In this document: one piece after another, positions 49,653 to 52,061 of the stretch
Layout of the letters: each line of letters begins with the position of its first letter
Numbering within the stretch: position 1 is the first letter of the stretch
Source of the DNA: Sulfurovum sp.
GTDB taxonomy: Bacteria > Campylobacterota > Campylobacteria > Campylobacterales > Sulfurovaceae
Direction: 5' to 3'
Assembly (NCBI GenBank): GCA_027049035.1
Contig: JALTVI010000066.1
Location: forward strand, 124,001-188,000
DNA: 64,000 nt
Program-made: the position numbers and the translations under genes
Notes under the pieces: generated by a model
Told to the model about the DNA's origin: nothing
Database searches by the model: none
The model's input: only the letters and a program-made list of their open reading frames with translations

Positions 49653-50075
49653 ATGAAACGTACCATCGTTTACGCCATAACCCTCTTGACTCTCTTTGCC
49701 CAAACGACCAATGCCGCTCCGGCAGACCTGAACGAACTTCAGGGTGACTGGCACCTGCGTGAACTCGACGGTTACGAAGTACGCAAAGCACGCGCCATTT
49801 TGGACTTCGAACCCTCCAAAATGGTCATCGACGGCTTCGATGCCTGCAACCGCATCAACGGCAAACTGATCAAAAAAGCCGACGGCACCTACACCAGCCG
49901 ACTTCGCACCACCCGTATGGCTTGCCGAGGCAACCTCTTCAGCTTCGTCAGCCAACGCCTGCACCAGGCCATCGACGAAGGCTTCACCGTTGAAAAGGCC
50001 ACACGCCACGGCATTGACGGCATACTGCTCAAAAGCAAATCACATGAACTCTTTTTCAAGCGAATGGGAGAATAA
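49653..50075 (+). CDS. Secreted META/HslJ-like domain protein
   Basis: A signal peptide (MKRTIVYAITLLTLFAQTTNA) precedes one META domain: LQGDWHLRELDGYEV, FDACNRINGKLIKK, and TRMACRG. This is the pattern of HslJ-like outer-membrane or periplasmic proteins linked with stress resistance. The gene stands alone, starting at ATG 49653. A perfect 8-copy heptamer array begins at the base after its stop. Confidence 0.82.
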   Translation: MKRTIVYAITLLTLFAQTTNAAPADLNELQGDWHLRELDGYEVRKARAILDFEPSKMVIDGFDACNRINGKLIKKADGTYTSRLRTTRMACRGNLFSFVSQRLHQAIDEGFTVEKATRHGIDGILLKSKSHELFFKRMGE

Positions 50076-50131
50076 GAAGGTAGAAGGTAGAAGGTAGAAG
50101 GTAGAAGGTAGAAGGTAGAAGGTAGAAGGTA
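50076..50131. repeat. Heptamer array (GAAGGTA)x8
   Basis: Eight perfect tandem copies of GAAGGTA (56 bases) begin immediately after the TAA of the META-domain gene. Confidence 0.95.
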
Positions 50132-50167
50132 GAAATTTTTCATGGTTGGATTAAAGTGAAGCTTAAA
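50132..50167. repeat. Conserved 36-bp block following heptamers (copy A)
   Basis: The block begins GAAATTTTTCATGGTTGG and ends AAGCTTAAA. It matches blocks at 61953-61987 and 62940-62975, each of which also directly follows a heptamer array. Confidence 0.8.
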
Positions 50168-50170
50168 CTT

Positions 50171-50253
50171 CGTCATTCCTGGCTTGACCAGGAATCTTTG
50201 TATTCATCACCCAAACAACATCAAGATCCCGCATCAAGTGCGGGACGACAGAT
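50171..50253. repeat. Pair of dispersed palindromic repeats
   Basis: The first is CGTCATTCCTGG-CTTGA-CCAGGAAT (stem 50175-50182 with 50188-50195). The second is TCCCGCA-TCAAG-TGCGGGA (50227-50245). The same two elements, in the same order, occur at 63070-63092 and 63118-63146. They resemble small intergenic palindromic repeats common in proteobacteria. Confidence 0.8.
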
Positions 50254-50280: not shown

Positions 50281-50614
50281 ATCAAACACAAACAAGTATT
50301 TCGTATAAGTTTGCGTTGGGTTTGGGCAATCCGTCGTGAGTGGAACGAATAATGAGTAATGAGCAACAGGTTTATTGAATTTTGTTCGAGTTGTATGTAG
50401 ATTTGAGGGTTGTTGCGCTGGAGCTTGCTGGGTAGCAAGTGACTAAGCAAACTCCCTCAAAGATGCATGCAAATCAAACAAAAACATAGCTTTCGTGTAA
50501 GTTTGCGTTAGATTTGGGCGATCGTCGTGAGTGGAGCGAAGGAGCTTACTAAAGAATAAGTGACTGAGCGAAACGAAGAGGATCGCTCAAAGATGACGTA
50601 AAATTACACGAAAG
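50281..50614. other. Degenerate tandem structured repeat (possible ncRNA)
   Basis: Two related units occur here. In the right unit, CTTTCGTGTAA (50490-50500) pairs with TTACACGAAAG (50604-50614). Inside it, TTTGGGCGATC (50513-50523) pairs with GATCGCTCAAA (50581-50591), and a CTTACT..AATAAG hairpin forms the tip. In the left unit, TTTGAGGG (50402-50409) pairs with CCCTCAAA (50454-50461), with a CTTGCT-GGGT-AGCAAG tip. A truncated third copy (about 50297-50349) is interrupted by TAATGAG heptamers (50350-50363). The right arm overlaps the murF stop codon. No ORF is credible here. Confidence 0.6.
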
Positions 50615-52061
50615 AGGGGGCGTCGTTGGCGAAGAGGATCAGATCCCCCACCCTCGTCTGCTCCACCAGCATCTGTTCCATCTCCGCTTTGGAGGCAAGC
50701 TTCACCAGCTTTTCAGGGTCGACATGTGCTTTGAAGATCGCATAGTTCAAATCCCCCGTCACCACAACGACATCAAAAACTTCGTTGGCACGTTTGGCAA
50801 CCTGTTCATTCAGGGCGTCGTCCACCTCTACCAATCCGGGAGTGATTACGACTTTTCTGCCGGGATATGTTGCTGACAGATCGAAACTTGCCATCATGCC
50901 GTCGATGTTGCCATTGAAGCTATCATCGAGGATCACCTTGCCGCCGGCATCGATACGCTGCAGGCGGTGGTCGACCGGCTTGAGGGTCGAAAGTCCCTTT
51001 CGTATCTCTTCGTCACTCAAACCCATCGCTTTTGCAACAAGTACGGCTGCTGCAAGATTCATCGCGTTGAACGCACCAAGGATGTTTGCCGTGTAACGGG
51101 TACCGTTGAGGGTGAAGCTGGTCCCCTCCAGGGTCGCTTCCACATCGCTGATGATAAATTCGGGCATCGGCAGCTCGGGGTGTCCCTGCGCTACTTCCCC
51201 AGTGCCGTAAATATGCACCTTTTCATTTTCAGGTTTGACCATCGCGCTTTCGTGCACCCACGCCTCTTTCAGACGTTTGGTCTGCATGATCTCCATTTTG
51301 GTGTTGCGGATATTCTCCATGGTCTTGAAGTACTCGATATGTGCGGGGCCTATCTTTCCTACCACCACGTAGTGCGGATTGACAAAGGTGGCAATTTCGG
51401 CGATGTCACCCTCCCCTCTGGCACCCATCTCGACGACGTAGACTTCCGTATCTTCAGAGAGCTCATCGTTGATATCTTTCATCACGCCGCCAAGCGTGTT
51501 GACCGAACGCGGTGTAGCGTAGGTATTGTAGCGGCTGGAGAGCAGGTGGGCTACGAAATTCTTGATGCTGGTTTTGCCGTAGCTTGCCGTAATCCCCACC
51601 ACGGTAAGATTCTGCATTCCCTCGATTTTCGCCTGCGCCTTGCGCTTGAAGCCGTTGAAGAGCATCTTCTCTATGAATACGGAGACCCCGTAGGCAAGGA
51701 AGATGGGGATGAGCACACCGTGATGCCCCCACGCCAGCGCGAAGAGCAGTCCAAAGAGCAGCAGTGCCGCATAGAAGCGCTTGACGCGTCCTGTCCATAC
51801 CAGCGGTTTATCAAGCCCGCGGTACCATGCATAGAGCATTCCCAGATAAGCAATGACCACGACGAAGGCATAGTCGCTGACGTAATCGACCAGCATATAG
51901 ATGCCGTAGGGGATCAGAAAATAGACAAAATGCCACCAGGGTTTGGTGTGGTGAAACGCCACGCGCTCGAGCTTGTAGCTGTACCACTGCAGGTTGGTAA
52001 TGGCGTAGTAGCCCATGGCGACAAGAAAGACAAAATAGAAAGCGAGGTTAAGCAGCTGCAT
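50604..52061 (-). CDS. murF: UDP-MurNAc-tripeptide D-Ala-D-Ala ligase
   Basis: An N-terminal membrane region (about 1-130, several helices) precedes a Mur ligase domain with P-loop GITASYGKTSIKN, EMGARGEGDIAEIA, GAFNAMNLAAAVLVAKAMG and the C-terminal LDDSFNGNIDGMMA. MurF adds D-Ala-D-Ala to the peptidoglycan precursor. The membrane-anchored form of about 485 residues is typical of Campylobacterota. Its start overlaps the hydrolase stop (TGATG); a hydrolase-murF pair is also known in Helicobacter. The ddl that adjoins it there is not seen here. Confidence 0.92.
   Translation of the reverse strand: MQLLNLAFYFVFLVAMGYYAITNLQWYSYKLERVAFHHTKPWWHFVYFLIPYGIYMLVDYVSDYAFVVVIAYLGMLYAWYRGLDKPLVWTGRVKRFYAALLLFGLLFALAWGHHGVLIPIFLAYGVSVFIEKMLFNGFKRKAQAKIEGMQNLTVVGITASYGKTSIKNFVAHLLSSRYNTYATPRSVNTLGGVMKDINDELSEDTEVYVVEMGARGEGDIAEIATFVNPHYVVVGKIGPAHIEYFKTMENIRNTKMEIMQTKRLKEAWVHESAMVKPENEKVHIYGTGEVAQGHPELPMPEFIISDVEATLEGTSFTLNGTRYTANILGAFNAMNLAAAVLVAKAMGLSDEEIRKGLSTLKPVDHRLQRIDAGGKVILDDSFNGNIDGMMASFDLSATYPGRKVVITPGLVEVDDALNEQVAKRANEVFDVVVVTGDLNYAIFKAHVDPEKLVKLASKAEMEQMLVEQTRVGDLILFANDAPSFV

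Follow-up and report, generated by a model that had tools for sequence, protein, structure and literature searches.

The DNA between a small ORF (49653-50075, + strand) and a murF-like gene of Sulfurovum contains three copies of one hairpin, which raises the question of what kind of element this is and in which molecule it folds. The locus lies in a 64-kb stretch that was analysed as a whole and is called here the window. The genome is of Sulfurovum type (Campylobacterota): nearly all loci that a protein search brought up belong to Sulfurovum or its relatives. A preliminary description had proposed that the repeat is under selection for folding, and that it may be an undescribed noncoding RNA or a palindromic mobile element.

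Hairpin units beside the murF-like gene

The features of the locus are collected in Table 1. The architecture given earlier for the intact long unit was present in the sequence: an outer stem of 11 bp (CTTTCGTGTAA/TTACACGAAAG) and an inner stem of 11 bp with one G-T pair (TTTGGGCGATC/GATCGCTCAAA), beyond which there is a tip hairpin. The unit also has a 9-bp middle stem, which was absent from the preliminary description. The equivalent inner stem and the tip with altered bases in the short unit, as well as the interruption of a truncated third copy by TAATGAG heptamers, were found as described. The motifs GGAGCTT, AAGTGACT and TCAAAGATG are indeed common to the units, although several stretches that had been called single-stranded are purine-rich internal loops, in which tandem G-A pairs might stack (AGATTTG/CAAAGAT, GGAGC/GTGAC).

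Table 1. Features of the hairpin array in the window
Feature	Position	Strand	Evidence
Intact long-class hairpin unit	50490-50614, 125 nt	+	R1 match 132.9 bits, positions 1-125; fold z -10.4
Arms of the long unit	50490-50500 and 50604-50614	+	Right arm is antisense of the last codons and stop of the murF-like gene
Short-class hairpin unit	50379-50484, 106 nt	+	R2 match 105.1 bits, positions 1-105; fold z -6.3
Truncated older long-class copy	50299-50352	+	nhmmer match to right unit, E 1.5e-4; left arm ATTTCGTATAAG kept
Two TAATGAG heptamers, breaking up the truncated copy	50350-50363	+	Read directly in the sequence
Host gene, murF-like Mur ligase	50604-52061	-	ORF; Pfam Mur_ligase_M E 2.4e-25

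In comparison with dinucleotide shuffles, the + strand of the long unit folded with -60.6 kcal/mol (z -10.4), and the opposite strand with -32.9 kcal/mol (z -4.2). The short unit folded with -45.8 kcal/mol (z -6.3), and the truncated copy by itself showed no folding above chance (z about 0). The stop codon of the murF-like gene (50604-50606) falls within the right arm of the hairpin. The long unit stands between this stop codon and the short unit, which is hence displaced. Past the array, at 50078-50133, there is a tandem 7-bp repeat, GAAGGTA; three relatives (G050, G053 and G069) carry 7-bp repeats of other sequence in the same murF-downstream region.

Distribution, covariation and placement of the family

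By nucleotide search, relatives of the hairpin were detected in 48 of the 78 genus genomes. An alignment of 36 copies was followed by separate alignments of 22 long-class and 16 short-class sequences; both classes were folded and used for the covariance models R1 (long) and R2 (short). Each model matched 66 of the 78 genus genomes, with up to at least 13 (R1) or at least 15 (R2) matches per genome, and some complete genomes of the genus had no match to either. Because the models match their own seed sequences by construction, it is the genomes outside the seeds that count. R1 matched 83 of 150 genomes of the taxonomic family, in 8 of 11 genera, and R2 matched 26 of 200 genomes in the order and 58 of 298 in the phylum, Campylobacterota, elsewhere in which the relatives were weaker. 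Among 17 loci from the search of the order, mostly outside the genus, 14 had a host ORF stop nearby in the same orientation, and one further case, of ilvC type, was found outside these 17. Three loci from one other family of the order (L250, L253 and L325) gave weak matches with no abutting ORF stop, and may be chance matches or a structured sequence of another kind.

Hundreds of copies were found with the models. In the two seed alignments, 29 of 44 and 27 of 39 pairs had changed on both sides, as compared to a mean of 15.4 after shuffling in either case. The covariation scores of the two alignments were 0.453 versus 0.166 shuffled, and 0.554 versus 0.176 shuffled; none of 500 shuffles, which ignore the relatedness of the sequences, attained any of the observed values. 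Pairing was 95.6 and 96.3%, as compared to 36-50% when partners were slid by 1-3 columns, a control which favours the predicted structures, because they were derived from the same alignments. Covariation is strong in both classes, and the secondary structure is conserved and covarying, as would be expected of a functional noncoding RNA. The two outcomes that would have refuted the preliminary description, a lack of further copies and a lack of covariation, were thus not obtained.

Rfam 15 gave no match in the window at the gathering threshold, and at a permissive threshold the best match was a plant-type microRNA model, far under its cut-off. In the open-access papers searched, no description of the hairpin family was found, the closest being a survey of GTAG/CGTC palindromes (PMC3733652). 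With respect to these sources the word "undescribed" holds. The data support well a family of structured gene-end elements in Campylobacterota, which is apparently new to description.

The position of the copies relative to genes is regular. When a host ORF of at least 80 codons was required, 122 of 136 distinct copies had a stop codon at most 20 nt away, at offsets of -6 to +8, in an ORF running into the 3′ side of the element. Such a stop was found at the other boundary in only 4 of the 136 copies, and in 0 and 9 at control positions 300 nt away. The right-hand gene ran into the element in 133 of 141 placed copies, while the left-hand gene started away from it in 76 and ran into it in 35. 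Only one orientation relative to the host gene was observed. The 127 copies that could be assigned fell into 20 host-protein groups, one of them probably a spurious ORF; the host families number about 20 and are mostly housekeeping. Those named by Pfam are Mur ligase, EF-Ts, L19, EF-G, BipA, ketol-acid reductoisomerase, an AIR synthase-related domain, ribonucleotide reductase and GMP synthase; the remaining groups were recognised by eye only. Many of these are generally highly expressed genes.

Gene-specific arms and the strand under selection

The outer stem is gene-specific, repeating in inverted form the stop codon of its host and often the last codons as well; at murF, the coding end itself forms the right arm. 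The 11-nt outer arms were 79% Watson-Crick paired within a copy, as compared to 45% with permuted partners. A second pairing layer reaching the last codons scored at least 7 in 34 copies, where 4 were expected. One pair of the murF arm is G-C in the genome of the window (G000), G-U in its close relative G053 and A-U in another close relative, G023, with the rest nearly identical. After the same guaA stop, different arms were found in those species that have the element, and many species are without it. The arms might stem from a terminator that was already there and received an insertion in its loop, but this was not supported, because murF and guaA orthologues that are without the element showed no obvious matching post-stop stem, in a check made by eye and limited by divergence.

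The + strand was the more stable one in all 136 copies (mean -51.7 versus -30.8 kcal/mol), and this strand is the complement of the host mRNA. In a strand-symmetric alignment of the arms, G-T was counted 88 times and A-C 12 times, and in the next stem 288 and 3 times, respectively. Given the column composition, the ratio of observed to expected pairs was 0.75-0.88 for G-T and 0.24-0.28 for A-C, which rules out that the C-rich composition of the mRNA alone causes the asymmetry. The observed to expected ratios, calculated in the same manner, were 0.87 for G-T, 0.25 for A-C, 0.20 for G-A and 0.19 for G-G in the core stems, and 0.57, 0.17, 0.28 and 0.21 in the outer arms; the alignments used for both of these tests had been fitted to models of the + strand in which G-U is a permitted pair, and the contrast may be inflated. 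Toleration of the wobble pair alone is the pattern of RNA, and by these pair counts the selected molecule looks RNA-like. These data, obtained with copies from many genomes, show together with the covariation that base pairing is under selection, as had been suggested from the window, and that the RNA-like molecule is the strand complementary to the mRNA of the host gene. A cruciform was rejected as the selected state by reasoning, because it would not favour one strand.

The proposal of a noncoding RNA is conjectural, since the strand that folds is the antisense one of the host gene and a scan upstream of it found no promoter signature. Strand-specific, RNA-like selection at gene ends suggests, as the explanation that we tentatively prefer while holding it at less than even confidence, a structured element which acts in antisense RNA entering gene ends. 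The negative promoter scan agrees less well with a dedicated gene for a small RNA than with an effect on antisense RNA that is stray or due to read-through. We infer the following mechanism. Transcription would enter the gene from downstream, either by read-through of a convergent gene or by stray antisense initiation, and the antisense RNA would fold at the gene boundary into the long hairpin, which could stop, stall or mark the transcript before it pairs with the abundant mRNA. As a hypothesis for the origin of the gene-specific outer stem, the hairpin could allow DNA synthesis to turn back on itself, so that the gene end is copied by template switching, after which selection would hold the arm matched to that end; copies pushed off the stop codon would lose this maintenance and decay. 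The more specific claim is somewhat doubtful: that the family is a class of cis-acting RNA elements in the antisense transcript of the host, kept by selection at the stops of a limited number of housekeeping genes, with an outer helix made of the last codons and their tracked inverted copy. It counts against the antisense reading that the promoter scan was negative, that some complete genomes of the genus are without the family, and that in 76 of the 141 copies the left-hand gene is directed away from the element, so that the folded strand has no gene to drive it there.

Spread, possible message-level action and known repeats

The main rival of action in antisense RNA, which we consider possible but unlikely, is that of a non-autonomous mobile element: the hairpin would insert at stop codons, with + strand RNA or single-stranded DNA as the intermediate, and the intact copies would simply be the youngest. 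Its arms would arise when synthesis primed by the end of the coding strand copies the element, snaps back and copies the gene end, which leaves an inverted arm. Tandem arrays are in agreement with such insertion, and so is the neighbourhood of the murF stop, where close relatives carry different classes and where truncated, older copies farther out retain the inverted gene end. This switching of classes and the tandem arrays at one site fit repeated insertion equally well, and count against the antisense reading. Cores that are 92-94% alike also exist in different host genes with different arms, and there is a conserved single mismatch at the junction of arm and core. On the other hand, copies for different hosts within one genome are not close (at most 0.87 identity), the change at the murF arm pair looks like stepwise compensation in place, and the copies next to stops are better paired, the arms being paired at 73% in 11 displaced tandem copies and at 88% in the 125 others (permutation p <1e-4). 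A candidate partner enzyme is also not general: of the 78 genomes, 21 contain RVT_1 and 58 contain Y1 transposases (Y1_Tnp), and the carriers that lack Y1_Tnp include G012, G036 and G077. Some carriers have neither, so that an obligate partnership with a reverse transcriptase or a Y1 transposase is unsupported.

Mean core identity was 0.76-0.79 for the same host in different genomes, and 0.71-0.74 for different hosts in one genome; together with the poorer pairing of displaced copies and the class differences at murF, this indicates long maintenance as well as past spread. Hence, the part of the mobile-element proposal that stands is past spread, to which the arrays, the class switching at one site and the similar cores across host genes all point. 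As a description of the present copies it fits less well, because those close to stops look maintained in place, and their arms are specific to the locus and not fixed terminal repeats. With regard to the direct target-site duplications and empty sites that MITEs leave, orthologous ends with and without the element are too divergent to be compared, and the murF arrays in close relatives are compatible with insertion or deletion. In the murF 3′ flanks of five loci (L037-L040 and L078), long and short units alternate with stretches of TACTCAT-type heptamers in mosaic arrays, as if these had grown by repeated duplication. The tip motif of the hairpin was not found in viral contigs.

An element acting at the 3′ end of the mRNA itself, as a post-stop hairpin whose C- and U-rich loops would aid Rho-dependent termination or protect the end of the message, is improbable. 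It is kept as a rival because of the C-rich composition of the element in the mRNA sense (C 0.265, G 0.145, YC dinucleotides 0.135 per nt), a T-rich stretch that follows within the next 25 nt in 65 of 129 copies, as compared to 16-26 at control offsets, and published work in which Rho targets pyrimidine-rich RNA (PMC13323073). The mostly housekeeping hosts are consistent with it as well, and C also exceeds G in the flank, unlike in other genes of the window. However, the pairs which the mRNA would form as G-U are depleted to the same extent as mismatches, so that selection favours the other strand, and the mRNA strand is the one which folded less well in every one of the 136 copies.

A hairpin of template-strand DNA that acts against R-loop formation, by competition, directly beyond the stop of heavily transcribed genes would account for the orientation locked to transcription, the specificity for the template strand and the dispensable promoter, and pyrimidine-rich RNA would give weak hybrids, but it is very improbable, because single G-G and G-A mismatches, which in DNA are about as stable as G-T, are depleted like other mismatches.

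Palindromic small repeats are usually regarded as genomic litter or as generic terminators. The hairpin family departs from this view, as it is locked to the stops of a limited gene set in one orientation, folds on the anti-message strand and takes its outer stem from the host end. Should the antisense reading be correct, bacteria would have a dedicated gene-end structural device with antisense RNA as its target; should the mobile one be correct, there would be an element that copies the end of its target in inverted form.

Comparison with known systems gave partial likenesses. Intrinsic (Rho-independent) terminators share the hairpin directly after the stop and, in about half of the copies, T-rich sequence beyond it; their GC-rich stem followed by a T tract was not found, since the arms are AT-rich at the base and the T-rich stretch is present in 65/129 copies, and the family differs further in its conserved internal loops, in arms of about 45 positions each and in selection for folding on the anti-message strand. 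With MITEs and other small non-autonomous elements the family shares short repeated palindromes, tandem and truncated copies, and similar cores across loci, but it has a limited host set and no fixed terminal inverted repeats, the arms matching the host end of each locus and pairing at only 45% across copies. Integron attC sites are similar in being long imperfect post-stop palindromes with a folding asymmetry toward the bottom (template) strand; the hosts of the hairpin family are core genes in single copies, not cassettes, and its pairing is RNA-like. Integron attC sites carry R'/R'' core-site boxes at their ends, and no such boxes were seen by eye at the hairpin ends in the alignments.

The REP palindromes of the GTAG/CGTC survey are repeated outside genes, often near or overlapping gene ends, which is also the position of the hairpin family, and they are 20-40 bp long with a fixed tetranucleotide tag (PMC3733652). 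The units studied here are 105-125 nt long and stop-locked in a single orientation, their stems covary and their arms are specific to the locus; in the alignments their ends vary by locus and bear no constant tag, and the Y1 (RAYT-type) transposase associated with GTAG-type REPs is missing from some carriers. Sulfurovum sp. NBC37-1 is listed with both GTAG and CGTC palindromes (PMC3733652), and two short palindromes at 50174-50250 of the window, CGTCATTCCTGGCTTGACCAGGAATC and GATCCCGCATCAAGTGCGGGACGAC, resemble the CGTC-tagged repeats of that strain (PMC3733652). Another type of palindromic repeat (GTAGGTCGGGGTG..., TAGGGTGTTGT..., GTAGGGTGCGTAA...) was observed in other species, either after murF or within a broken guaA element, at five loci (L051, L055, L059, L307 and L313).
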